A stretch of 64,000 bases of DNA, taken from assembly GCA_024220525.1 (NCBI GenBank), contig JAMYWO010000077.1:104623-168622 (forward strand), given 5' to 3'. Below are positions 2,880 through 63,651 of this stretch, piece by piece. The notes beneath the pieces were generated by a model. It was not told the DNA's origin. It searched no databases and saw nothing but the letters and a program-made list of their open reading frames with translations. The position numbers and the translations under genes were made by a program. Numbering within the stretch: position 1 is the stretch's first letter; every line of letters starts with the position of its first letter. Origin of the DNA: Cochliopodium minus. Lineage: Eukaryota > Discosea > Himatismenida > Cochliopodiidae.

Positions 2880-5800
2880 ATGAGGTAACACCATAAACTC
2901 TATAAATGTACATAATTAAATTCATTTTTGTATTTTATAGTGGATTATTGCTAGAGGTTTCGGTTCAAGTGCACAAGATAGATAATGAATTCAATTGGAA
3001 TCCCATCCATCAGAGATTTGTTCCCCTTTTCATCTATGAAGATAATATCAAGGGGATATATAGAATTATCGCTTCTACAAAGGATAAAGTAAAAAAGATC
3101 TTATGAATTAAATTTTGTGGATACAACTATTATAATTAACATTATTAAATAATGTGAAATTTGTCAAATTTTTCTTGAATTTTTTTCTATTATCAAAGGT
3201 TCTGATAAATTCTATCATCACACAAGAAATCAAATACAATAAAATGAGTGAAGATTTTCACATTTTCATTGATGATGACAGTTATGGATTGAAATTCAAA
3301 GATGCCAATAATGCAAAGTCATTTAAGGAAATGTTCGAATTGTTGATGAGATCAGGTAAATAAAAAAATATTTTTTCATAATTCAAATAATCAACCATTA
3401 AAAAATTCCGAAAGATGAATCATTCATTCCATTGATGGATATAAATGGGTGAGTAAATTTTGATTTTTTAATCAAAGAAATATTATTATATTTTTTGAAT
3501 AGAATATTCTCGAAAGTATTCATTCTGGATAAAGAAAAGAATGATTGGAATCCTATGGATAAAGGATTTTTGGTGATATCCTTTGAATGTGACAGAGAGA
3601 ATTTGATTTATGAGATAAAGGGGAAGAATGCGCAACAGGTAAAATGAAATATAATCAAATATATTCTATTATTTTTTTTTTTATTGCTTGAAAAAGAATG
3701 ATATATTATCGTTATTTATTTAGGATCTATCTATCAACATTCCTTTCATGAAAGAAATTTCAATCAAAAAGATTAACAATTTGTTCTACGCCGTAAAAAA
3801 CAGGACCATTGATTATGGTTTCTTGTTCGATAGAGAAGAGCACGGACAATCGTTCTTACAATCCTTCGAAAAATGCAAAAATAACCCGGTGACGTCTGAG
3901 AACATGGATAACGATATCATTTTAGATTTTCTTTTCGAAAACTTGATTAAATCACCGAAACCAAAATATTCTTTGGGAGATTTCTCTTATATCTCCATAT
4001 CTTCCAAGCAGAATAAGTAAAAGATTTCTTAAAAAATTTAAATTAACATTAATAATATATAATGTAATTTTGTAACAGAGAACTAAAGAATGTTGAACTA
4101 AAGATTGTTTCTCCCAGCTCCTCGAACATAAAGTTTAGTTTGAAAGACAAGCAAGAAGAACACAGGAATCTAAGAGAAGATAACTTAGAAATGGTCAAAG
4201 AAAACGAACTTCAGGTCATCATAGAGGGTAAAAGAACAAATTCTAAAAAATTTTTGGTTTTCTTATACCATTAAGGTGAATTGCAACTAAAAACGGATTT
4301 GTTCAATATATTCAACGACAAATATGTGGTTTTAATTTCTCCCAATATACTTAAAGTGTGGTCAAGCAAGATCTGTTACGAAGACTCTGAGAAACCAGAG
4401 TTGGAACTCTTGCTCTACCAACCCAAAACCAAGTTGGTGAGGATATCTAACAAAAATTGGACATTCCAGCTAGAAATGGTAGTGGAACAAGTCGACATGA
4501 TCAAAGACAATCTCAATAAACTAAAATCTCTATTCATGGATAAATTAAATTTAGGGAAAAATAGAAATGATAACGTAATCATGCAGAAATCTACAGTCAT
4601 TTATGTCTTTGCATGTAAGTCCATCTTTGAAATGAAGAATTGGATGAAATCTTTGAGTATAGACGAAGTGGATCTGGGTGGCGAGAGCAACTCTCCAGTT
4701 AATAACGAAAAAGAAATCATCTCAGAGTACACCATGAATGTTTTTCATCCTCCTCTCATTAAACTTGATTTCGAGAACTTCAGAAAGCCAGAGACTAATT
4801 TTCTTTCCGAAGAGTATAAACACTTTGCTGATAGATGCGGATATACTCAACTGGTAAATAAAAGTGAAAAAAATTTTTTTTTTTTATCTGATTTATTTTT
4901 TTAAAAAATCAGATCAAAAAATTTTCTGTGTTGCCCAGAAAAGAATTCATTTACAAAAGGTTTTATTTTTATTCTTTCTCATTCCAAATCAATAAATTTT
5001 CGTTTAAACAAAATAGGGAAGCATTGGTACCGACCTCTAAAAATATCCCTCTTTATGAAGAGAGGTTGTCAGATCCAAAGCACATTAAAAAGTTAGCGTC
5101 AAAGGGAAGAAGCAGGAAAATAGAGTACGTGTTGGGGAAGATCTTCAATCCCCCTCCCGTAAAAGATGGTGAGCAAGGTTTGAGAGGAACAGACGGTGTT
5201 CGTGGGACTAATGGTTCTAATGGAGGAATAAAACAAGGAGGTTTGCCAGGGCTTCGTGGTGATAATGGTACTGTTGGAAAAATTGGAGGAAAGGGAGAAA
5301 GTAAGTTTTATTTTTATATTTATTTTATAAAATTAATCTTTTTTCTTTTTTTTGAAAGATGGAGAAAATGCTGGCGACGCAAGTGACATGTACCTTGTTT
5401 TAAATGGTAATTCGGAAGGTCTCATCATCACAGGTTCATATGATGGGTACTATTACAAAAAATTTTATCATTTTAAATAATTTTTTCAAATAGAACTATT
5501 CGCTTGACTGATGGGTTCATTTTGATCGAAGGAAAAGGAGGAGATGGTTTACTTTTTTTTTTAACAAGAATCAATAATAATTTAAATTTAAAACGTTATA
5601 GGTTCTGATGGTGGAAATGGTGGGGATGGTAAAATTTTCATTAACGATAAAATAACATTGTATCAAATAAATCAAATTTCTCAAAAAACTTAGGTGGTCA
5701 TGGAGGAGATGGTGATTTCTTATTCAAGAATTTTTTTTTCTATAATTAATAAACTTTTATTTTATAGGTGCTAGAGGAGGAGACGGAGGAAGAGGAGGGG

Positions 5801-8800
5801 ATGGAGGAGGAAATGGTAAAATATGATATTTACTAATAAATAATTAAATTCATTTTTAAAAAATAAGGTGGAGATGGAGGTCATGGTAAACATAAAACTA
5901 TCACATTAATTCTTTTTTTGAACAAAATTTTATTTAATAGGTGGGAATGGAGGTGATGGAGGTGATGGTAAGAAAAAAGAACTTTTATGAATTTTTAATT
6001 TTATTCACAAAAAACCCCAGGTGGAAATGCAGGAGATGGTGAACATCACTTGAAAATATTCAAAAATAATTTTTAACACAATTTTTTATTTTAGGTGGAA
6101 ATGCAGGAAAGGGAGCCAATGTTCTAATTTGTTCAAAGAGTAATTCATTTTATTTCCCATTACTCTCTCTTAGTTTAATTTTTTTTATTTAGATAGCGAG
6201 TTATTTCATTTGATGGCAGTGGACGTGAGAGCTGGATTTATAGGATTTGGGGGGAAAAAAGGAGAAAAAGGAAGAGGTATTTCCACTTTAGAAATTCTTT
6301 TTTAACTTAACTGATTTATATTATAGGAGGAAAAGGTAAATCAACTTGAATAATTCTTTAAAAAAAAATTAAACACGGAACATTATAGGCGGAGAAGGTA
6401 ATTTTTTAAGGTACCCTTTATTTATTATAAATTGACATTTTTGCTTCAAGGTGGAGAAGGAGGATTGGGGTAAACTTTTTTTTAATATTTTGAAAATAAT
6501 AATTACATTTTAATACCAGGGGTAAAATTTTTTTTAAAGTAAATTATTTCAATTTAATATTACTCATTTCGTTCATTAAATTTAGCTAATGGTGGATCAA
6601 AAGGAGTTAAAGGAGAAAGTAAAATTTTTTTTTCCATTTTCTTAATTTTTCATTCTTAATATTGTTCCAAGATGGAAAAGAAGGAAGAGACGGTGTTGAC
6701 GGAGTAGGTGGAAAAAACGGAACAAACAACTTTTTTGGGAGCTTGATGTACATAGTTAAAGATGAAAAAGGGAACGATATAGGTCTTTCAAAATAAAAAA
6801 ATAAAACTGAACTTTTTTAAAAATTATTTCAATTTTTAGAGGGAAGTGGTTATTGCTACAACGCAGTTTGTGAAGGATATAAGGTTTGTGAATTAGTAGA
6901 TGATAACATTTTCCAACCAGGAGAAAAGATCAAGATCAAAGAAGTCACTGTGTTCAACAATGGCGGGCTGACTCTCCCTCCTTCCATTGTTTCTTTCCCT
7001 TCCAATGATACCATCACTTTTGACGACTTGTCCTACCAGTTGCCCGAGATCCCTCCCAATGCATTTCACACAATTCCTCAAGAGTTCACTGGAAGGATAT
7101 ATGATATTCCCAACGCTCAGATCGAAGGAAAATATGAAGGTAAAACTTTTTAAAAAATTTTTTTAATTGTATTAAAAATTATTTCTTTAGGAAAATGTTC
7201 TTTTCACTCGACTGTTTCGTTGCTCAATCGCCCTTTTGAAGAAGGCACCCTCTTTACCGAAATTAACGTGCAGTACCCCATAAACTTCTCGATGATAGAA
7301 GTGCCCTCCCACATGGGAATAGGAGAGCGCAAACCAATCTCACTTCAAATCGACAATATCTGTTCAATGGAAAAATCAAACATCAAAATAGTAGTAAACT
7401 TGGGAAACAAGATAATTCCCATTGACAAAAGAATCGTCCTCAACGAAAGAAAAAATGTGAGTGACCCTCACATCTTGGAGTTCCCCATCGACAAAATTGA
7501 TCCTATTTGTCCTTATGGTGTCTCTTTCAATGTCGGATTGAATGAGGAATGTTTGATGTTCGAATCTTATTCGATAAGGATCGAACTTTACCTCAAGAAC
7601 AAATTGATAGAGTTCCACACCAAAAAGATAAGGGTTTCTCCATATTATACCCCAAATTTATCTATGGTAAAAAAAGAGTACTCTTTTAAATTTCCTTTTT
7701 AAAATTGTTTCTTGAAATTTTTTAGTTAAATGGCTCCGCTTCTGCTCAGGTCTTGCTCATGACTTCTCAACACCTCAGGAGGAGAGATTTCGTTTGCATG
7801 TGTAATTTGCTCCAGCTCCTCAATTTGACATACGATGTGTGGGATATTGAAAGATATGGAAATATATCTGACATTGGTAAAACATATCGTCAATTAATAA
7901 ATTTAATTTTACTTTTTTCTTTTAGCTGATAACAAACTAAACTGGAAAGAAAGATATAAAGAGTCGATGATTGTGCTTTTGCATTCCAACAAGTTCTTTG
8001 AAATGATGGACACCTACGATATAATCAAACATTTGAATGGAATCACTCCCATCAACAAGGGGTTTAACTATACCCCCATCAAAACTAGTGGTTCCTTACT
8101 TTTCTTAGATCTCTCTGAGTCACAACGCGAAGATCTCGTGAACAACACCTACCAATACGGAGTAGATGTTACATTTTCGGGAAAAGTAAAATTTATATTT
8201 TTTATTTTAATACTTAATATCCTTTTCAAAGTATTTTGGAGGTATTCATATTCTAAACAAACCAACTCAACAAGATGCAACCACAGAAGCCAACGAAATA
8301 ATCTTAAAACTCGCCAAAAAGGAGCCTCAATTCGCCTACAAAATCAACACCATCAACTACCGTGCCGACAAAGTCTCTCCTACCAACTATTGGTACGGAA
8401 GCTTGCTCCTCAAAAAATGTCCGATACCAAAAAATTCAAAATTGTTTGCCATACTCGGTGAAAATAATGTTTCGAATTTAGGTTCTCTAAAATCAAATTA
8501 TTTTAAAAATGTTTTTAAATTTCATTTTTTTAATTTTAAATAGGTACAGATGACTTCAAAATGATTTACGAGAAGTACGTAGACTTCAATGAGCTCTCTG
8601 ACAAGAACAAAGAGTTTGTGCACTCCCAGATCTCTATCCAATTTGCAGACACCTTGTATGTCAAGAACAATGAGAAGGAGAATTCCGAGAAACAAAAAAT
8701 GGAAACTTTTCGTATCGATCTTTTCGAAAACTTAGTTGTATCAGTCGAAACTGTAAAAAAAAAAACTTTTTTTGATTCAAAATTTTAATTTATTCCAACC

Positions 8801-10367
8801 TAAAGAAATTGTTCCAAGTGTTTTGTTCATTGTTACTTGGTTTATCAATCTCGCACAGAGTGTCTCTCATCAAAGAAAACAAGGTAGTTTCCACAATTAG
8901 ATTCAAAGCTTCCAATGACAAAATAATGAGTTTCTACGAGCTCCTCAACATTTCTCTGCAAAACGAGTTGCTTTCAGAATACAACTTTGCCAAAGATCCA
9001 TATCTCCCGAAATTCTCTGAATTTGTCTATTCCATAAATAAGATTGCAGTTCCCCTTGTGAGTGAACTTTTAGTGGAAGCTAACAAAGAAGGTAAAACCA
9101 AATTGTTTAACTTTTATATTTTTTTCTTCAACAAATTTAAATTGGTTGTATCACTTTTTATGAAAATTTTATCTTCAATGTTCTAGAATTGAAGGGCAGT
9201 GAAGAATTCAATTCTTTTAATTCTAGTCAAAATTTGAACAACAGTTTGTGGGTACAGAGAAAAATGAAGGTAAATTTTAAGAAAAAAATAATCGATTTGA
9301 TCAAAATAGTAATTTTCTAAAAAATATTAGGATCCAACTTCTCCTACAAACAAAATCTGCAACTTTGTTTACACAAGCAAAATAGTAAAACAGAGCTTGA
9401 GTTTCTTTGATACCGCTGAGAAGAAGAACGAGCTGAACTATCTGATTGTCCTTCTTTACAAATTTCTCAAACTCGATTATTTTCCCAACAAAGAAGAGAA
9501 AATGAAGCATGAGTACATCGGATCTCTCATTCTTAACGAAACTGAGAAAGAGAAGAAGCAAAACGCAACCATCTCCATTTCGGAACTGTGCCACATAGTC
9601 CAGCCTTTCAATTTCGAGCCAAAAATCGATCCTTTCATCGATCTGAAAATCATCGAAGATGGTACTCTTTTTATTCAATTAATTTTGTTATGATTTTGAA
9701 ATATATTCAATTTCACATGAATTCATATTACTCAATTATTATTTCAGAGGCAGAAACAAACGAATTTCATCAATTCTCCCTACCCGAAACAGCTCTGCAA
9801 TGTACCAAGTGCCTCACTAAATTCGGAACACTCGTAAACAGAAAGACCCACTGCCGACAATGCTACCTGTACTTCTGCAAGGAGTGTTGCGCAAACGACA
9901 TCTTAGTGGAAAGGATGGGATCCTTCGAAATTGAACAAACTTGTGACTCTTGTTTCTCAAAAATCAACAATTATGAAATACAGGACAAACTTGGTGTCAA
10001 ATCTTGTTCTGTTTGTTGTTCTTCTTTAAACAACAATGACAAAAAAGAAAGTTGTAAACGTTGCGGAGATTATTCTTGCTTGAAATGTTCCCATCGTGTT
10101 TACCTCTACAACTTTTTGGGACCTCAAAAGATTTGTTTCACTTGTTTAAAGTATCATTGTTCTGTAGAGTTTAAACAGGGTCTCAACTGTTTTAGTTGCA
10201 GCTCCAAGCTAACTGGTTTCTTTCAGAAGAAACTCAACTGTTTGTCTTGCGGAAACATATTTTGCGAGCCCTGCGCTACCAACAAACTCGCCATCAACGA
10301 GTTTGGGCTAAGGGGAAGCCACCCGGTTTGTAACAAGTGCTTTACCAACTTTCTTGATAAATATTAA
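2880..10367 (+). CDS. WH1-WH1 / glycine-repeat / triple FYVE-like zinc-finger protein, 36 exons
   Basis: I rebuilt 36 exons summing to 5406 nt (1801 residues). Exon 1 codes only five bases (ATGAG, 2880-2884). Residues 1-103 match the WH1/EVH1 fold (NWNP, YRIIA, LINS.IT, YGLKF), and a second WH1-like unit follows (NDWNPMDKGF) to about 250. Residues 565-800 are glycine-rich collagen-like triplets encoded by microexons. Residues 813-1595 are an unrecognised, beta-rich region. Residues 1600-1801 hold three tandem cysteine-rich fingers: CTKC..THCRQC..FCKEC..CDSC, CSVC..CKRC..CLKC..CFTC and CFSC..CLSC..CEPC..CNKC. This spacing is FYVE-like, but only the first keeps part of the basic patch (NRKTHCR). 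No signal peptide is visible, so it is probably cytosolic, possibly linking proline-rich actin regulators (WH1) to endosomal membranes. The function is inferred. The gene model is strong. Confidence 0.85.
5602..6618 (+). repeat. Microexon-encoded glycine-triplet repeat array
   Basis: Within the WH1/FYVE-like gene, consecutive exons 5602-5628 (27 nt), 5694-5711 (18), 5768-5815 (48), 5868-5885 (18), 5941-5967 (27), 6021-6038 (18), 6095-6139 (45), 6193-6276 (84), 6327-6335 (9), 6389-6397 (9), 6451-6469 (19), 6520-6521 (2) and 6586-6618 (33) encode Gly-Gly-X and Gly-X-Y units. They are separated by introns of about 50-66 nt. Nearly all junctions are phase 1 and cut a glycine codon as G|GN, so whole triplets can be gained or lost without a frame change. 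The repeat is tandem at the exon-intron level, with each unit ending GATG|GT or similar. Confidence 0.85.
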
Positions 10368-13246: not shown

Positions 13247-15133
13247 TTATTTATATAAGGTTGTTGTACTGGTAGTACCATCATTATAATTGATAGATAA
13301 AATAGTCGAACTGTACCAGCTGGAATCAACAAAGGTATCAGTACTGTAAGATACAGTGGATTGTAAACTCCATCCATGTCCAGTCAAATCCAAGTGAGAG
13401 AAGAAATCATAATAACCATTGATGGCAGTGTTGTTGACTCTATCAAAAAAGGTAGGAGTACAAGTATCATAAACTTTAAAGAAAAATTGACCGAGAGGGT
13501 TGACTCTTACAAGAGCGAGACATCTGTTTTCCATGTTATCGATTTGATTCATATATCTAGGAATGAAAGAAGTTACAAATTCTACATTATGATTAGGAGG
13601 TGGGCACATTATTTGACTTGTAGAAGCAGAGTTAGGGAGAACATAGTACCAGTTTGTGTTATCGTTCAAGTCAGATTGAAGGGTTGGGATCAAAGAGGAA
13701 GAAGCACCTGAAGGAACAACAGAAGCATAGTCCCAAGAAGCAACTCCTTCCAAGTAAACACGGTCGCAATCCAATCTGCAAACTGGAGCGTTTTGAGATT
13801 TTCTTTCAGCACCAGGGGTAAAGAAGTTAGGATCATCAGTGGTTCCTGCAACTTTAACAACAAAGGAAAATTGAGCCAAAATACCAGGATTGGTGACGTT
13901 TCCGTACAAATAGTAAAATTGGGTAAGAGGGCAAAAATTTGTTCCTGGAGTACCTACAGATCCTTGTGCTCCTGCTGAACCAGGGGTACCTACTGCACCA
14001 GTAGGACCTTGTTGACCTTGTGGACCGGTAAAACCTTGTGGACCTGTAAAACCTGCCAAACCTTGTGGACCAGTAGGACCAGTAGCTCCTTGAATACCAG
14101 TGATACCTGATGGACCTTGTGCTCCAGTTGCACCGAATGCACCAGATGGACCGGTTGCTCCATCAGCTCCAATTGCACCAGTAGCACCAGATGGGCCAAC
14201 TGCTCCAACTGCTCCAATTGCACCAGTTGGACCAGTAAAACCTTGGGATCCGGAAGGTCCAGTCCAACCTTGAGCTCCCTGTGCTCCAACGGAACCTGCA
14301 ACACCACCACCTCCTTGAGGTCCTTGTGCTCCTTGAGGACCAGTCACTCCAGAAGGTCCAATTACACCTTGTGCTCCTTGAGGTCCTTGTGCTCCTTGTG
14401 GTCCATTGAATCCGGTGTCTCCAATAATTCCAATTTCACCAGTTGGACCTTGTCTTCCAGTGTTTCCTTGGGTACCTGGTGTTCCAGTTTCTCCAGATTG
14501 TCCAACAAATCCGGTGACTCCTTGAGGTCCTTGTGCTCCATTGTTTGCGCTTGGTCCAGTAGCTCCTTGAGCACCAGGAACTCCTTGAATTCCACATTGT
14601 CCTTCAACTCCATTTATACCATTTCTACCAGGTGCACCTTGAACACCAGCTTCTCCACATATTCCAGCTTCTCCTTTTGCACCTTTGAATCCCTTTTCTC
14701 CAACGAAATGGGAACGAACACCACCCCAATGTCCATCAGGAGTTACAATCCAATTTTGTTCGCAACCATTAGTTCTTTTCCAATTTGTCAATTTATATCC
14801 TGCTGCTGCAATACCACCATTTACTCCATCAAATCTAAATGTTGATTCATATACAGCTGGGAGTTGCCCAGGTTTTGGTTCACATACTTGAATGGAAATT
14901 GTTGGATCCAATGCATCTTGGAGTGGATCATATGTATATCTTGGATCAGTAGGGTTAGCATTTTCTACATAATCAGGTCCAAATTTAAGAGCACATTGTA
15001 CATCAGTTGATGGAATAATTCTTACTCTATCAAGAAAACTTGCTTCGTTGAAATCTGAGTGTCTGCTTTCAATGATAGCAGTAATTGAAATTATTTGCAA
15101 TACAATTACTAATAAAAATATTAATTTGTTCAT
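13247..15133 (-). CDS. Secreted collagen-like protein (Gly-X-Y repeat)
   Basis: An intronless gene. I chose the ATG at 15133 because it gives a clean signal peptide (MNKLIFLLVIVLQIISITAII), although an in-frame ATG ten codons upstream exists. The product has 628 residues: signal peptide, an N-terminal globular part to about 144, about 85 Gly-X-Y triplets (residues 145-399, bases 13937-14701) and a C-terminal domain of about 230 residues. The triplet run has one flaw (GPS-ANN-GAQ). Y positions are rich in Thr, Gln, Ala and Pro. Lysine at Y occurs only in the first three triplets (GEK, GFK, GAK), which are possible sites for lysine hydroxylation and glycosylation. Cysteines lie within the early triplets and both flanks. 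The product is probably an extracellular trimeric coat or matrix fibre. Base composition is visibly richer in G and C than the surroundings. Confidence 0.93.
   Translation of the reverse strand: MNKLIFLLVIVLQIISITAIIESRHSDFNEASFLDRVRIIPSTDVQCALKFGPDYVENANPTDPRYTYDPLQDALDPTISIQVCEPKPGQLPAVYESTFRFDGVNGGIAAAGYKLTNWKRTNGCEQNWIVTPDGHWGGVRSHFVGEKGFKGAKGEAGICGEAGVQGAPGRNGINGVEGQCGIQGVPGAQGATGPSANNGAQGPQGVTGFVGQSGETGTPGTQGNTGRQGPTGEIGIIGDTGFNGPQGAQGPQGAQGVIGPSGVTGPQGAQGPQGGGGVAGSVGAQGAQGWTGPSGSQGFTGPTGAIGAVGAVGPSGATGAIGADGATGPSGAFGATGAQGPSGITGIQGATGPTGPQGLAGFTGPQGFTGPQGQQGPTGAVGTPGSAGAQGSVGTPGTNFCPLTQFYYLYGNVTNPGILAQFSFVVKVAGTTDDPNFFTPGAERKSQNAPVCRLDCDRVYLEGVASWDYASVVPSGASSSLIPTLQSDLNDNTNWYYVLPNSASTSQIMCPPPNHNVEFVTSFIPRYMNQIDNMENRCLALVRVNPLGQFFFKVYDTCTPTFFDRVNNTAINGYYDFFSHLDLTGHGWSLQSTVSYSTDTFVDSSWYSSTILSINYNDGTTSTTTLYK
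13937..14701 (-). repeat. Gly-X-Y coding repeat (9-nt period)
   Basis: This is the collagen triplet tract of the secreted protein, read on the minus strand. It is a degenerate 9-nt periodic sequence (GGT/GGA CCT/GCT ACT/CAA type codons on the coding strand) without introns, unlike the microexon-split glycine repeat at 5.6-6.6 kb. Confidence 0.9.
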
Positions 15134-15962
15134 TCCCCTTTTTCTTTTTTTTTGACGTTTCAAATGATGAGTATTTTTTTAAAAAAAAAAGATATTCAAG
15201 TATAAGTTATTTTATAGAATCCCTACTGAGCTTCTTTTTCTATTATTATAATTTCTATTGTTTACCTATATCAAACAAGTATTGAACAATTACTTTTTTT
15301 TTATTTTTTTTTGTTCTATAATGTTTTTTTTTTGTCTTTTCATAATTTTTCAGAAATCAAAAGAAAAAAAATATTTGAAATCAAATGATCAAATGATTTA
15401 TTTGTTATCAAACCAAATTTTCGATATAGAAGTAAAACATTTGCAGGATCAGTTTCAGTTCTATATTATTGCATTTCAAAATCAAAATAATTTACAATTT
15501 CGAGTTTAGATTAGGAACCAACCATTTGAAGATATTTGATCTTTAAAGATGAATGAGGAATCATATTTGATAATAGGAAGGTGGTTATAAAATATATTTT
15601 GGAGATCACTCCAAAATATAGATAAGAATCATAATTACATTCCTTTTGGTTGAAGGAAAGTTAATATTGAAGAAATTGAGAAAATTTTTTCAAATGCACA
15701 GTTAAATCAAAAATTTTATAATTTTATCTCCCTTTAAATTTCAAACAAAAAAAAAAAATATATTTTCAATATATTCTTTTTCGTTAAATGGAAATAATCA
15801 TTCAAACAATATTTGAGAAAAATACAGCTGATAATATTGAAAGGAATTTGGAAAAAATATCATACCTTTCTTAGAATCATAATGTAAAATGATTTTCAAA
15901 ATGAAACAAAATTTTTAAAAATAAAAAAATTATTTTTAATTATCGGATATAAGTTTGAATCT
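15134..15962. promoter_or_regulatory. Upstream region of the collagen-like gene
   Basis: About 830 bases lie between the start of the collagen gene (minus strand, so this is its 5' flank) and the 3' end of the carboxypeptidase gene. The sequence is AT-rich with homopolymer runs next to the start codon. The one clear structure is a 12-bp perfect inverted repeat at 15593-15620. No convincing coding exon is seen, and the short ORFs here lack codon or protein character. Confidence 0.45.
15593..15620. promoter_or_regulatory. 12-bp perfect inverted repeat with 4-nt spacer
   Basis: The left arm TATATTTTGGAG (15593-15604) is the exact reverse complement of CTCCAAAATATA (15609-15620), separated by ATCA. 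It lies about 460-490 bases upstream of the collagen start codon. It could be a dimeric transcription-factor site or an RNA hairpin in the carboxypeptidase or collagen flank. Only the symmetry is observed; the function is not known. Confidence 0.5.
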
Positions 15963-42396: not shown

Positions 42397-45300
42397 TCAA
42401 AACAGATGAAGTTTGATGATTCCCTGAGAATTGAGAATAGCATATTGTAAGTCTGTTTTTTTTGTGATAGATATAAAATCGCCTTCGGTATCCTTAAACT
42501 TGATGGAAAACTTGATACGTTTTTTGAATTCCTTGGCAAACTTCTTCTCGAGTTGGGCGATCTCAACATCCTTTTTGATTCTGAGAAGCCTACACTCGTT
42601 TTTGTAGTAACCCTTGATCCAAATTTCGTTGGTATCCTGTTGGTCCTTCTCCTCCTCGTAATCATCATCAGAAAAAATGTTGAAGACCTTGGAAGGGGTC
42701 TCCGGAGAAGTGATACCGATTTCCTTTCTTTCGAGAGGGATGGATTGACTGCTCTGAGGAGGGCCATCCTTGGATTCCTCAACAATAACGACAGTTCTAT
42801 TGGTGTAGTGCTTTCTTGCAGAAGGAGTGTCAATGTTTCGAGGAGAAAGACCGTAAGTCCTGAGTTCTTGGTTGTCAAAATCCTTTTCGCGATAAGAACT
42901 GTTTCCATCCATTTCAGAGGAGTTCCTTCTCTTAAAAATTGCAGTCAAGTTGTTGTGGGTATCGCCAAAATTGAGACGAGGAATGATGACATTGTCACTA
43001 ATTTGATTGTTGGTATTGTTAACATTTTCTTCGCCAACATTCTCTTCGCCATAAGAACGGATTTCTTTGATTATTTTCTTACGATGTCCAAGTTTGTTGA
43101 TTCCCAACATCTTGAGATCGTTGTCGTTCAACATAGCAAGTTGATCTCCTCTAATGGAATGATTAAGAAAGTTCTTTGAATACTCACCCATCCCAAGACT
43201 CAGAAGCCACTCGTCAATCTTTTCTTTGGACCAAGCGGAAATGCCTCCTTTGAGGGAATCATCCTTGTAAGATCTGGAAGAGTTGATGCTGCCAAAAGCA
43301 AGAGAAATTCTTTTAGAGCTTGAGTCATTCTCCAAAAAGTATTTGACATCAATAAACTTTGAAAGCTCCTTATCTTTGCTACTTCCGGTACTGATGGCCC
43401 CTTGCAAAGTCTTTACCCTATCTATCTTGGAACGGGATGCTCCATACATAGGGTTCTTCTTTACCACAAAACCTTCTTGCTTGCAATCATACTTGGAGGA
43501 AATGATATCATCACCATCCAAAGTGAAGTAGCTTTTGACATCTTTAAGGTAGGTAGAATTAGCAAAATACTCCCTGAGCCCTGCAAAAAAATCATAAACA
43601 GTATCTACACGTTCGATGGTGTAAAGCTTTTTCTGGAAAGATCCAATTTCCCTCAAGACAGATCCAATGAGCTGCACTTTTTTGTAGTTAATGAATCCAT
43701 TTTCGGTAAAACTATCGATGGTCTTATCTATGTATCTGATAGATTTCATGTTGATCGCAAAGTAGGGGAGGATGGGAGGTCTAAGTGAAATAGAACTTCC
43801 TGTAACATTGGAAAGAGTGTCTTTGTAGTTCTGGAAAGAAAAAGTGGGCGAAATAAGCTTTTCGTACTTTGAATACTTCTGCATGTAACTTTTCGAAACT
43901 GATTGCCAAGCAGCGAGAGATTGTATCTTCTCCGAGCTCAAAGTGTTGATGATAGAAAAGAGGGAATTGAAGTTTCTGAGTTTGTAGAGATAGTCAGATA
44001 CTTTGATGAACTTTTTAAGAATGCTCGGGTGCTTTCTCTTTTGGGAGAGCTCAAAAGATTGCAAAATCCAAGCAGATATCTCCAGGGAATGAGAACAAAA
44101 GAGTTCCATATTTTTGGAGATGTTTCCATCCTTGCAAAACATGTCAGAAGGCTTGAGTTGGGTAAAGAGATAGAAACAAAGCTTTGTAATTTGCTCGGCT
44201 ATCACCTTGGAATTCAACTTGATGTACTGAAAAAAGGCTTCGTTGGAGTTGATGGTAAAGAGAACTTTGTTGTTGACCACGTTGTTTCTGGAAGTCTTTT
44301 GTCTTTCTTTTTCATACTTTACAAGATCCAGTTTAAGTGTGTTGATCAAAACAAGGTTCTCTTTAGCAATGAAATTGCTTTTCATAAAGGAAAGAAGCCT
44401 ATCAAGCATTTTGTTGTTCCCTGACCAATCCCTCTCATAATGCCTTGCGATCCAAAAAGAGACGAACTGCAGCAATTGTTCTTTGTTGTTGGGGAACCTG
44501 TAGCTTTTGTAAATGTTCACAAGGCAGTTTAACAATTTCTTGGGAGAGACAAACTTTTCTCGGTAGCACAAGAGGAAGTTTTCTTTGTTCTCCTGGAGCT
44601 TCTCTTTGAAGATCAACCATTCCACCACCTTCTTGAGGGTACCTGATATGAAGTTCTCCCCATTGAATCCCATAATGACACATTCATTGCCAGGGATGAT
44701 CTCCGGTTCGATGGATAGTTTGGGAGAATTGATTTCCATCTCCATATATTCGATGGGCTGTTGTAGCTTATTATTGAGGATCCCAGATAAATCGAATTCC
44801 TCATTGAGATTTGATTGTGAACGCTTGAAACTGGGAATTTTGCTTTTGGAATTCTTCTTGGTGAGCTCGAATGGATTGGAATTGATGCTATGATATTCGT
44901 TGGATGATGAATCTCTCTTCTTCCTCTTTTCCTTATCGCTTGTGGAGTTATCCGAATCGTTGTTAGAGGATTCGTTGGTATTGGTATCATTGCTTGCATC
45001 TTCTTTGGATGAAAATTTGGATTCGACCTCACTCGAGAAGGATGGAGATACTTTGTTGGTTTCTTCAATGGAAAGGTTATTGATATTTTTAATAGACTCT
45101 TTTGGAGAGGTATTTTCATGAAATCTTATTTGCAGATTTTGTTTGATCTCCTTTTTCTCTATTGTATTTACATATGTATCATCCATCGGCATTATATTCT
45201 TTTTGATTATGTTTCTATTGGATGGTGGAGTATTGCCACTCCCAGATTTCGTGGGATTATTGCTCGTATTATTATTTGTGGGTAAATCATTGAGGGATGG

Positions 45301-45669
45301 TGATTCTTTTTTGATAGGAATATTAGGAGAGGATGTTGAAAATTTTCCGTTATTTAATTTTTCTGGTTCAGATGGATTATTGGGAACAACATATGATGTA
45401 GGTAGGTATCCTACTGTATTATTCACAAATCCATAACTCCACCCATTCGAATGAGATGAGCTTATTGTTATATTATCTCCCTTTTTGAATGATAATTGGG
45501 ATTGTGAGGTATCTCCAACGTAATCATATAGTGCCGTAGCAACATATGAGTTGTTATTCATATCCATTGGTACATTATATGTAGATCTCTTTTGTATTTG
45601 ATTCTTTTGTTTCTTCATTCTTGATAACGTATTTTTATTTGTTTTTATAAATTTCTTTTCATCTGACAT
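42397..45669 (-). CDS. Ras guanine nucleotide exchange factor with SH3, SAM and PB1 domains
   Basis: An intronless gene of 1090 residues. An SH3 domain (about 42-97: ATALYDYVG, GWSYGFVNNTVGYLPTSYV) is followed by a Ser/Asn-rich linker, a RasGEF N-terminal helical module (SGTLKKVVEWLIF onward) and a CDC25-type catalytic domain (NSNEAFFQYIKLN..ISAWILQSF, KFIKVSDYLYKLRNFNSLFSI, PPILPYFAINMK). A SAM domain (WSKEKIDEWLLSLGMGEYSKNF, LNDNDLKMLGINKLGHRKKI) and a C-terminal PB1-like domain (FSIKFKDTEGDFISI) complete it. It should load a Ras or Rap GTPase. The SH3, SAM and PB1 domains would place it in scaffolded complexes. Confidence 0.93.
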   Translation of the reverse strand: MSDEKKFIKTNKNTLSRMKKQKNQIQKRSTYNVPMDMNNNSYVATALYDYVGDTSQSQLSFKKGDNITISSSHSNGWSYGFVNNTVGYLPTSYVVPNNPSEPEKLNNGKFSTSSPNIPIKKESPSLNDLPTNNNTSNNPTKSGSGNTPPSNRNIIKKNIMPMDDTYVNTIEKKEIKQNLQIRFHENTSPKESIKNINNLSIEETNKVSPSFSSEVESKFSSKEDASNDTNTNESSNNDSDNSTSDKEKRKKRDSSSNEYHSINSNPFELTKKNSKSKIPSFKRSQSNLNEEFDLSGILNNKLQQPIEYMEMEINSPKLSIEPEIIPGNECVIMGFNGENFISGTLKKVVEWLIFKEKLQENKENFLLCYREKFVSPKKLLNCLVNIYKSYRFPNNKEQLLQFVSFWIARHYERDWSGNNKMLDRLLSFMKSNFIAKENLVLINTLKLDLVKYEKERQKTSRNNVVNNKVLFTINSNEAFFQYIKLNSKVIAEQITKLCFYLFTQLKPSDMFCKDGNISKNMELFCSHSLEISAWILQSFELSQKRKHPSILKKFIKVSDYLYKLRNFNSLFSIINTLSSEKIQSLAAWQSVSKSYMQKYSKYEKLISPTFSFQNYKDTLSNVTGSSISLRPPILPYFAINMKSIRYIDKTIDSFTENGFINYKKVQLIGSVLREIGSFQKKLYTIERVDTVYDFFAGLREYFANSTYLKDVKSYFTLDGDDIISSKYDCKQEGFVVKKNPMYGASRSKIDRVKTLQGAISTGSSKDKELSKFIDVKYFLENDSSSKRISLAFGSINSSRSYKDDSLKGGISAWSKEKIDEWLLSLGMGEYSKNFLNHSIRGDQLAMLNDNDLKMLGINKLGHRKKIIKEIRSYGEENVGEENVNNTNNQISDNVIIPRLNFGDTHNNLTAIFKRRNSSEMDGNSSYREKDFDNQELRTYGLSPRNIDTPSARKHYTNRTVVIVEESKDGPPQSSQSIPLERKEIGITSPETPSKVFNIFSDDDYEEEKDQQDTNEIWIKGYYKNECRLLRIKKDVEIAQLEKKFAKEFKKRIKFSIKFKDTEGDFISITKKTDLQYAILNSQGIIKLHLF

Positions 45670-61764: not shown

Positions 61765-63651
61765 ATGGAATTTGATATTTATAATAACAACAACAACAAT
61801 CAAGCGATCTTCTATCAACCAAACCCTATTCAAGAAATCAATAAAGAGAAGAATAGACCCAATAAGAAAATCAAATTAGAGAACAATGAATTCGATTTTC
61901 AAAATTTCGAAACATGGGGGGAGAAGTACCAGAATGGGGAGATGATCGACAACAATTTCTCACTAGGAGAAAATACCAATACAAAATTAACTCAATCATA
62001 CATAGACCTCATCATTAATCCCTCTGAGAACACAAACGGTGAAAATGCTCTGAATATTGCAACAACACAAGAGATGATGAACAACACAGAGTTTTATTTG
62101 CCGATAGAACATGATATGCCCTTGGATACCGGAAAGATGGAGCCACCAAAGGATTTTGTAATTGAATTGTACGAACCCATCTTGGATAAGATAAAGAAGG
62201 AACTTTATCAATTCGAAATGGAAATCAGCTTTATCTTTGACCAATGCAAGAAGAGGATCTATCCAAAGAAGAAACAAATCATGGAATTCAAAGAGAAAAT
62301 CGAAAACCTTTGTGCAGAGATACATTACCTCCTCCAAAAAAAGATCTTGCACGTAGTGAATGTATATTTCTCACAGTGGCTCTTGCAACAGCTTTCCATC
62401 TGCTCCAAAAGACTCACCTTGGTGAATAATGAGATCGAATACTTTGAAGAGAAGATGTCCAAGAACGATGCAGTGGATATTTTGACAGCATTCGTATTCA
62501 TAGATCAACCTCTCTCCCAATCCTTCAAAAACAAGAATCGTGCAAGACAAGTGAACACAAAGAAGAAATCACATTGCATGATGAAAGCTGCCATCCTCAC
62601 AAGTCCCAACACTTACTTTAGGTTCTCCAAACCTGTGATGGCACAATTCACCACTAAAGAAGATTCCTCCTCCAAGCCTGATATCACTTTGGAAAGTTCG
62701 ACCGAAGAGATGGGAAAGAATGTTCTTGTTGTCACTTTCAGCTTTAGATTCCCTGTTGGTACCAGATGTAAGCCTGCTCAACTCAAACTAGAAGTGGAGG
62801 GAGATGCTTATCTTCCTCAAGTATCTTCCAAGTTTACCACCACCATCAAGAGTGACATCTCCAACAACTTTGTGGTTGCTACCAATGAATGTCAATGGGA
62901 GGGTGCTGAAGGAAAGTTACTTCTTTTCGATCTCTTTGGAGAGGATTACATAATGGGTTCTCAAAAAGGGAACAAGAGAAAGAAAAAAAAAAGTTTGAAG
63001 GATCAAAAGGAAGCTACTTGGCCTTTTTTCATCAATCAACTTTCCATCCGGTTCATCCGTGCCACCAGACAAGAGATCTCTATCAACGAGCTCATCAAAA
63101 AGTTGGAATGTGGAGAGATGGAGACGATCTTCAAGCGTGTTCTCATTGAAATTGACATCAACTACCTCCATGAGAAGAGATTCACCAACCAATTGTCGAT
63201 CACTCCTCAACAAGTTGAAACTTTCTGGGAGTGGTACGGAAAGACCCTTCACATATTCAGACACAACTCTCATATCAGAACCATCTTCCTCGAGGGGCTC
63301 TTTTTCTCTTTGATCTCCAAAGAAAAAGCTGATCAACTTCTTCAAGGTCAACGTCCTGGTACTTTTCTCATTCGTACCAGTGAAAGATCCACTAAGGGTG
63401 AATTTGCCCTTGCTCTCGTTTCCGATAACAATAGGATCAAACACACCAAGATCGAATCTCAAAAGATCCAGCCTCCTCACAATAGTTTGCCTGATTACAT
63501 CAAGGACATTCAACAACTGTTATTTGTCATCAAGCCTCCTAACATTGGTTCTCGTGATTACTTGATTTATCCAAAGGATAGTGCCTTTGAAAAGTTCTAT
63601 ACCAAAAAGATCAAAGATGTTGATGATGGTTACGAAGATATTGATGATTAA
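61765..63651 (+). CDS. STAT-family transcription factor (dictyostelid type) with SH2 domain
   Basis: An intronless gene of 628 residues. After an Asn-rich start, residues 130-240 form the coiled-coil bundle, about 245-430 the DNA-binding beta domain (SHCMMKAAILTSPNTYFRFSK, VVTFSFRFPVGTRCKPAQL, TNECQWEGAEG), then a helical linker (ETFWEWYGKTLHIFRH) and an SH2 domain from about 510. The phosphotyrosine-binding arginine is Arg537 in GTFLIRTSE. A single tyrosine near the end (Tyr623, in acidic DGYEDIDD) is well placed for phosphorylation and SH2-mediated dimerisation. There is no N-terminal tetramerisation domain of animal type. All functional landmarks are present, so it should be an active, tyrosine-kinase-controlled transcription factor. 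Confidence 0.93.
   Translation: MEFDIYNNNNNNQAIFYQPNPIQEINKEKNRPNKKIKLENNEFDFQNFETWGEKYQNGEMIDNNFSLGENTNTKLTQSYIDLIINPSENTNGENALNIATTQEMMNNTEFYLPIEHDMPLDTGKMEPPKDFVIELYEPILDKIKKELYQFEMEISFIFDQCKKRIYPKKKQIMEFKEKIENLCAEIHYLLQKKILHVVNVYFSQWLLQQLSICSKRLTLVNNEIEYFEEKMSKNDAVDILTAFVFIDQPLSQSFKNKNRARQVNTKKKSHCMMKAAILTSPNTYFRFSKPVMAQFTTKEDSSSKPDITLESSTEEMGKNVLVVTFSFRFPVGTRCKPAQLKLEVEGDAYLPQVSSKFTTTIKSDISNNFVVATNECQWEGAEGKLLLFDLFGEDYIMGSQKGNKRKKKKSLKDQKEATWPFFINQLSIRFIRATRQEISINELIKKLECGEMETIFKRVLIEIDINYLHEKRFTNQLSITPQQVETFWEWYGKTLHIFRHNSHIRTIFLEGLFFSLISKEKADQLLQGQRPGTFLIRTSERSTKGEFALALVSDNNRIKHTKIESQKIQPPHNSLPDYIKDIQQLLFVIKPPNIGSRDYLIYPKDSAFEKFYTKKIKDVDDGYEDIDD

Follow-up and report, generated by a model that had tools for sequence, protein, structure and literature searches.

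Microexons of plants and animals usually occur singly or as a few per gene. They can be as short as 1 nt, and intron definition has been proposed for them (PMC8378409, PMC8831610), with two adjacent microexons reported from a rice gene (PMC8831610). Consecutive tiny exons, mostly multiples of three in length, are described for the micro-exon genes (MEG) of Schistosoma, which have introns of 0.1-5 kb and encode secreted proteins (PMC10526429). Among genes for Gly-X-X repeats, fibrillar collagen genes, known for their 54-bp exons, have exons of 45-162 bp that open with an intact glycine (Gly) codon (PMC2852846), and type IV collagen genes have introns that split the Gly codons, the ctenophore examples encoding collagenous and NC1 domains with exons of 40-4,867 bp (PMC5395295). 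We here analyze a gene of Cochliopodium minus (Discosea) that can be compared with all of these systems. It is situated in a window of 64,000 nt, which is positions 104,623 to 168,622 of the forward strand of contig JAMYWO010000077.1 (assembly GCA_024220525.1).

What is new in this gene is a row of consecutive, partly conserved predicted microexons encoding a putatively folded, Gly-rich domain in a microbial eukaryote. The array has the size range of plant and animal microexons, but here 12 predicted exons of at most 48 nt and one of 84 nt follow each other within approximately 1.0 kb. Like the MEG it consists of consecutive tiny exons, but its introns are only 50-65 nt long and the encoded domain is conserved. 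As in fibrillar collagen genes, a Gly-X-X repeat is encoded by exons whose lengths are multiples of 9 nt, the differences being the phase 1 introns, the exon sizes of 9-48 nt and the protein family. It also has the split Gly codons of type IV collagen genes, but no NC1 domain was found in a Pfam scan of two pieces covering the whole protein. As for the DUF7932 proteins, the Pfam match exceeds the cut-off and the module can be aligned with 120 listed relatives, whereas the WH1 domains in front and the microexon architecture (intron structure being read in this genome only) set the gene apart. The explanation we consider highly probable is that short introns cut the coding sequence of a conserved Gly-rich module of the DUF7932 family into microexons, as argued by the gene model, homology across the exons, intron positions shared with a paralog and the largely confident fold of a relative.

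The assembly comprises 44.65 Mb in 598 contigs, and the window has a G+C content of 31% and contains no N. The predicted gene (2880-10367, plus strand, as are all exons given below) has 36 exons and encodes 1,793 amino acids (aa) from ATG to stop without an internal stop codon. The model was made by hand and checked by script; a first automatic model, from a codon-usage path search, was rejected because it followed non-Gly paths through some of the array and missed the exon 6389-6397. All 35 introns are of the GT-AG type and measure 46-110 nt, with a median of 56 nt. In the whole protein, Pfam identified WH1 (67 bits, two stretches), DUF7932 (53.2 bits) and FYVE (79.1 bits, three stretches), each family above its cut-off, in the order WH1-WH1, Gly-rich module, DUF7932, FYVE. 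For DUF7932 (PF25560) the cut-off is 27 bits, and the domain scored 47 bits in the genome search. As in the listed relatives, the Gly-rich module, with its non-repeat anchors, precedes DUF7932.

The array is bounded by the exon 5494-5546, which terminates in GKGGDG and serves as its anchor (gene model, paralog alignment), and the exon 6672-6782, where the last Gly-X-X stretch leads into DUF7932 (gene model, alignment). The predicted exons between them measure, in order, 27, 18, 48, 18, 27, 18, 45, 84, 9, 9, 19, 2 and 33 nt. The 27-nt exon at 5602-5628 and the 18-nt exon at 5694-5711, both with an exon of the same length at the matching place in a paralog at C223, are placed by the gene model, a homolog profile, a Gly path search and the paralogs. 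The 18-, 27- and 18-nt exons at 5868-5885, 5941-5967 and 6021-6038 are placed by the first three of these together with the alignment of 120 relatives. The intervening 48-nt exon (5768-5815; gene model, alignments) contains a register slip and is a length-variable site among homologs and paralogs. The Gly run ends in the 45-nt exon (6095-6139; gene model, relatives' alignments), which carries the anchor NVLICS, and the 84-nt exon (6193-6276; gene model, profile, relatives' alignments) holds the conserved SELFHLMAVDVRAG segment. Two exons of 9 nt, each a single triplet, follow at 6327-6335 and 6389-6397; both are placed by the gene model, the profile, the Gly path, the alignment and a genome pattern search, and the latter is absent from the codon-usage path. 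Next comes the 19-nt exon (6451-6469; gene model, profile, Gly path), alone not frame-neutral, after which the frame is restored by a candidate 2-nt exon (6520-6521; both path searches, gene model, profile), with TACCAG before it and GTAAAA after it. The last is a 33-nt exon (6586-6618; gene model, profile, Gly path).

The original prediction had named exons of 27, 18, 18, 27, 18, 45, 9 and 9 nt, all eight of which are found in the gene model, and its few others correspond to the exons of 48, 84, 19, 2 and 33 nt at 5768, 6193, 6451, 6520 and 6586. The observation of a predicted microexon array is thereby confirmed, and the array is longer than was stated there. Its introns had been described as mostly in phase 1 within Gly codons, which agrees with the 14 introns in 5547-6671: 13 are in phase 1, ten of them splitting a Gly codon (8 GGT, 1 GGA, 1 GGC) and three a non-Gly codon, and one splits Gly in phase 2. 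Eleven of the 13 predicted exons are frame-neutral, i.e. a multiple of 3 nt long. Introns are also dense here, with 14 in the 357 coding nt of the array versus 21 in the other 5,025 nt of the gene (binomial p = 1.9e-8, for a region that was picked for standing out). Their retention would add an in-frame stop in 11 of 14 cases. Not one of the 14 array introns has a length divisible by 3, whereas 5 of the 21 introns outside the array do.

Lengths in multiples of 9 nt, also claimed originally, hold for 8 of the 13 exons and fail for the 48-, 84-, 19-, 2- and 33-nt ones. In eight exons both ends are phase 1 splits of Gly codons; seven of these have lengths divisible by 9, the exception being the 48-nt exon, in which the Gly-X-X register slips. 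An exon with both ends in phase 1 of the Gly codons of a Gly-X-X repeat must have such a length, so that the regularity follows from phase and repeat and is not separate evidence for a 9-nt unit. The proposed 9-nt building unit is thus not supported, the rule being automatic and broken by the 48-nt exon at the register slip. Exons in multiples of 9 nt can accordingly arise without exon duplication when a Gly-X-X repeat has phase 1 introns, a point to be considered in reading collagen-type gene structures.

A homolog search with residues 500-1100 as query gave 260 proteins with E <= 0.001 among 8,000 scored candidates, and 120 of these were listed, those named being from Lineus, Ephydatia, Oopsacas, Adineta, Rotaria, Naegleria, Willaertia, Vannella and Tetrahymena. 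DUF7932 is present in the precomputed domain column of all listed relatives except P0087, and P0107 has DUF7932 together with FYVE. All 120 can be aligned across the microexons, and in an alignment with 19 of them, chosen by us, the exons match up throughout. The exons at 5602, 5694, 5868, 5941, 6021, 6095, 6193, 6327 and 6389 match in length in 115-120 of the 120 listed relatives, those at 6451 and 6520 in 88 and 89, respectively, and those at 5768 and 6586 in no more than 5 and 4. The non-repeat anchors are firm, with 33 residues from NVLICS to GRGG in 116 of the 120.

A leave-one-out profile was made from the 120 listed relatives, with the window protein excluded, and dropping any single array exon reduced its score. 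The losses were 12.3 and 18.1 bits for the 27-nt exons, 8.4, 11.6 and 9.6 bits for the 18-nt exons, 39.8 bits for the 48-nt exon, and 6.0 and 5.6 bits for the 9-nt exons, differences that are rough because the scores carry large composition-bias corrections. Omission of either the 19-nt or the 2-nt exon alone gives a stop. The profile thus favors full inclusion of the predicted exons. It also speaks against the region being one long intron, or a decayed stretch, with blocks that are not exons at all. A junction of 5546 with 6672 would indeed preserve the frame, both ends being in phase 1, but the omission of all 13 array exons costs 155.7 bits, the resulting intron would be 1,125 nt long compared with 46-110 nt in the model, and the conserved non-repeat NVLICSKN-SELFHLMAVDVRAG is located in the exons 6095-6139 and 6193-6276. 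We regard a long intron as highly improbable.

The array was also recovered by a path search in which homology was not used, the rules being GT, AG, introns of 40-120 nt, an open frame and a maximal number of Gly codons. The best open spliced path over 5494-6782 has 69 Gly codons, agrees with the model in 13 of 14 introns and contains both 9-nt exons and the candidate 2-nt exon. Of 200 dinucleotide shuffles of 5547-6671, the 174 in which an open path of the correct phase existed were counted; these reached a mean of 30.5 and a maximum of 41 Gly codons. The sole mismatch with the model is an intron at 6121-6173 in place of 6140-6192, where homology (the 19-relative alignment) favors the model. 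Across the 44.65-Mb genome, neither a strict 9-nt exon pattern (4 matches, versus 10 in a backward control) nor an 18-nt pattern (8 matches, control 6) was enriched. Two of the 9-nt matches are window exons, and the other two do not look microexon-like by eye; of the 18-nt matches, two are window exons, one lies in the C223 array and five by eye are not microexon-like. These counts suggest that exons of exactly such 9- and 18-nt kinds are rare in the genome. Automatic gene finders can easily miss such exons, as when the first codon-usage path search dropped one of them.

A DUF7932 model search of the genome found the window gene (at C77) and a gene at C40, and a third gene, at C223 (L046, L048), was found by pattern search; C-terminal pieces are also present near the end of C223. 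The module exons of C223 measure 27, 18, 69, 15, 18, 36, 86, 89 and 15 nt, and those of C40 (L034) 18, 69 and possibly 4 nt, with five introns, four in phase 1. The possible 4-nt microexon in C40 (L034 5181-5178) would not be needed if an acceptor two bases downstream were used. Introns are thus crowded in the module of both paralogs, and small module exons are a predicted characteristic of this family in the genome. When the window gene and C223 are aligned, five introns coincide in column and phase. In the leading ungapped block, with 18 shared Gly codons, this holds for 3 of 3 introns (P = 0.0012), and over the stretch to NV the five coincidences between 7 and 7 phase 1 introns have an alignment-dependent P = 6e-5. 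Since these positions are shared, several introns would be older than the duplication that separated C77 and C223, and the architecture thereby old.

Shared positions point to old introns and not to recent exon duplication, by which the repeat had originally been proposed to grow. In its full form this proposal says that the repeat grows by copied exon-intron units and that isoforms differ by whole triplets. It is in line with the 11 frame-neutral exons, most of them in phase 1 at both ends, so that skipping would keep the frame, and with the varying length of the whole Gly run among the 120 listed relatives. Similarity among the array introns, however, does not exceed that among shuffles (mean local score 17.66 versus 17.82; maximum 29 versus a shuffle mean of 30), and omission of any array exon lowers the profile score. 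Furthermore, gap placement permitting, the length differences among relatives within the array fall at 5768-5815 and 6586-6618, not at the 9-nt exons, and those at 6451-6521 amount to one residue only. Growth by duplicated cassettes thus appears unlikely, although alternative splicing of triplets is possible.

How the introns came to be where they are is a separate question, and we see roughly equal grounds for and against their gain or retention at G-GT sites in Gly-rich DNA, the array having no function of its own; such an origin is compatible with a conserved module cut by short introns. Among the codons in 5494-6672, 8 of 15 GGT are split versus 3 of 44 other Gly codons (p = 3.2e-4), and G precedes 12 of the 14 array donors and 16 of the 21 other donors of the gene. 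The intron density given above and a true collagen gene at C149, in which four of five introns split Gly codons, fit as well. C223, on the other hand, shows no GGT preference, its split codons being 3 GGT, 3 GGA and 1 GGC, and this genome also has long Gly-rich collagen frames free of interruption, which means that Gly codons by themselves are not enough to attract introns.

The original prediction compared the gene with collagen, a reading that the protein and exon data do not support: Pfam Collagen (PF01391) reached 17.1 bits against a cut-off of 27.2, only on the part before the microexons, DUF7932 is well above its cut-off, and the Gly codons at exon starts are split, not intact. Judged by domain matches, the module is part of the DUF7932 family and the predicted window gene is no collagen. 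An AlphaFold2 model of the relative P0047 (54 alignment rows), which is not the window protein itself, had a mean predicted local distance difference test (pLDDT) score of 82.4. The P0047 segments matching the 13 array exons had block means of at least 90 in eight cases and 76-86 in five, and hardly any helix or strand was assigned in the Gly segments. The module may thus fold as a single chain, its most likely form being a bundle of helices of the polyglycine-II type, with three residues to each turn.

Collagen-like sequences do occur in this genome, with at least 169 matches (150 of 811 candidates scored), many of them in open frames whose length ranges from hundreds into the thousands of residues, e.g. 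at C4:170791-170964, C159:76673-84019 and C267:25545-35351, and one listed frame of 12,063 aa. This set is large for a 44.65-Mb genome. The five introns of the collagen gene at C149 are all in phase 1, its inner exons measuring 276-441 nt, and in another collagen gene (L010, by eye only) the introns seem to lie between codons. Split Gly codons are not peculiar to the array, because the C149 gene also has them, and what distinguishes the array is its tiny exons.

Several points weigh against a conserved module assembled from microexons, in addition to the bias terms of the profile and the use of a relative's structure. The region was selected because of its odd appearance, and we infer its actual splicing from sequence and homology. 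The codon-usage path search did choose the 2-nt exon, but the exon 6389-6397 is missing from its path, which departs from the Gly frame over some of the array. Between GKGGDG and NVLICS the run measures 65 residues in the window protein, compared with 58 or 75 in 66 of the 120 listed relatives and 58, 75, 71 or 77 in 88 of them; since the Gly repeats also align loosely, with gaps possibly moved into variable sites, inclusion of each single exon of the run is not proved. Residues 800-1793 as query gave no relative at E <= 0.001. A fold comparison was uninformative on the Gly-rich module, its rows lying mainly at 303-560, behind the module. Among the paralogs, the exon model of C40 ahead of the module contains stops and is not right there, and the window gene shares only one intron column with C40, and C223 shares none with it.

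The candidate 2-nt exon is the most striking part of the array. Joining 6451-6469 straight to 6586 reads TTG GGC TAA, whereas insertion of 6520-6521 keeps the frame; the alternative to using the 19- and 2-nt exons is that both are skipped together. Two path searches, by codon usage and by Gly maximizing, picked the 2-nt exon unprompted, and 1-nt exons have been validated in plants (PMC8831610). Its origin from a duplicated donor segment was rejected as an explanation, the sequences at 6470 and 6522 agreeing in 19 of 26 places and other intron pairs reaching 19-20. The 2-nt exon is thus a candidate predicted from the sequence. That the two exons are not used as modeled, either being skipped together or with an assembly error mimicking the need for 2 nt, has in its favor that the 9-nt exon 6389-6397 can join 6586 directly in frame and that 2 nt is at the edge of known sizes. 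Their joint omission lowers the profile score by 56.9 bits (approximately 18 with bias terms added back), however, and would further shorten the GRGG-to-GSLMY distance, which at 48 residues is already below the 54-72 of the eight commonest lengths among the 120 listed relatives. On balance we find non-use of the two exons somewhat doubtful.

If the predicted exons are spliced as modeled, the protein would be an intracellular, probably membrane-associated, scaffold or signaling protein of the DUF7932 family. Its module would be divided by short, AT-rich spliceosomal introns, most of them lying in phase 1 of Gly codons, into exons of 9-48 nt and a possible further one of 2 nt; several of these introns would predate the gene duplication. 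For exon definition, microexons are considered too short, and when a long flanking intron of a worm gene was replaced by a very short one, the microexon no longer needed PRP-40 (PMC8378409). Each 50-65 nt intron would likewise be recognized across itself, and intron definition is hence more likely than exon definition, which the original prediction took as the relevant limit. Of that interpretation the mostly frame-neutral microexons with split Gly codons are supported, and collagen, the 9-nt unit, exon duplication and exon definition are not. As the splice sites flanking a 2-9 nt exon are too close for simultaneous use, neighboring introns would be removed one after another, full inclusion being the default and yielding the conserved domain. 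The most specific version, in which a conserved folded domain is constitutively assembled from consecutive exons of 9, 9, 19 and 2 nt, with about a dozen introns stripped in a forced order that was kept across a duplication, has in our view not quite an even chance of being correct. If true, it would be a natural test of minimum exon size under pure intron definition. Confirmed by RNA, the gene would offer a compact native system with exons down to 9, perhaps 2 nt, and short introns on both sides, allowing direct measurement of the minimum exon size and of the sequence in which introns are removed.

Other exons of the module are less unusual. The first Gly-X-X stretch (GEQGLRGTDG...) is found in the exon 5017-5300 (gene model, 19-relative alignment), and a strand-like insert in the exon 5359-5446 (gene model, alignment, relative's structure model) separates the Gly stretches. 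Most of DUF7932 is held by the exon 6840-7139 (gene model, Pfam, genome search).

A further open reading frame in the window, intronless and collagen-like (13247-15163, minus strand), encodes 638 aa with a Pfam Collagen score of 123.2 bits and an N-terminus that is hydrophobic by eye; by its predicted sequence it is a true Gly-X-Y protein near the DUF7932 gene. At 42397-45669 (minus strand) lies a single open frame of 1,090 aa with SH3, RasGEF, SAM and PB1 domains. Lastly, a STAT-like gene with STATa_Ig, EF-hand_12 and SH2 is found at 61765-63651 (plus strand), the best of its three listed relatives being a EukProt transcript with 72% identity.

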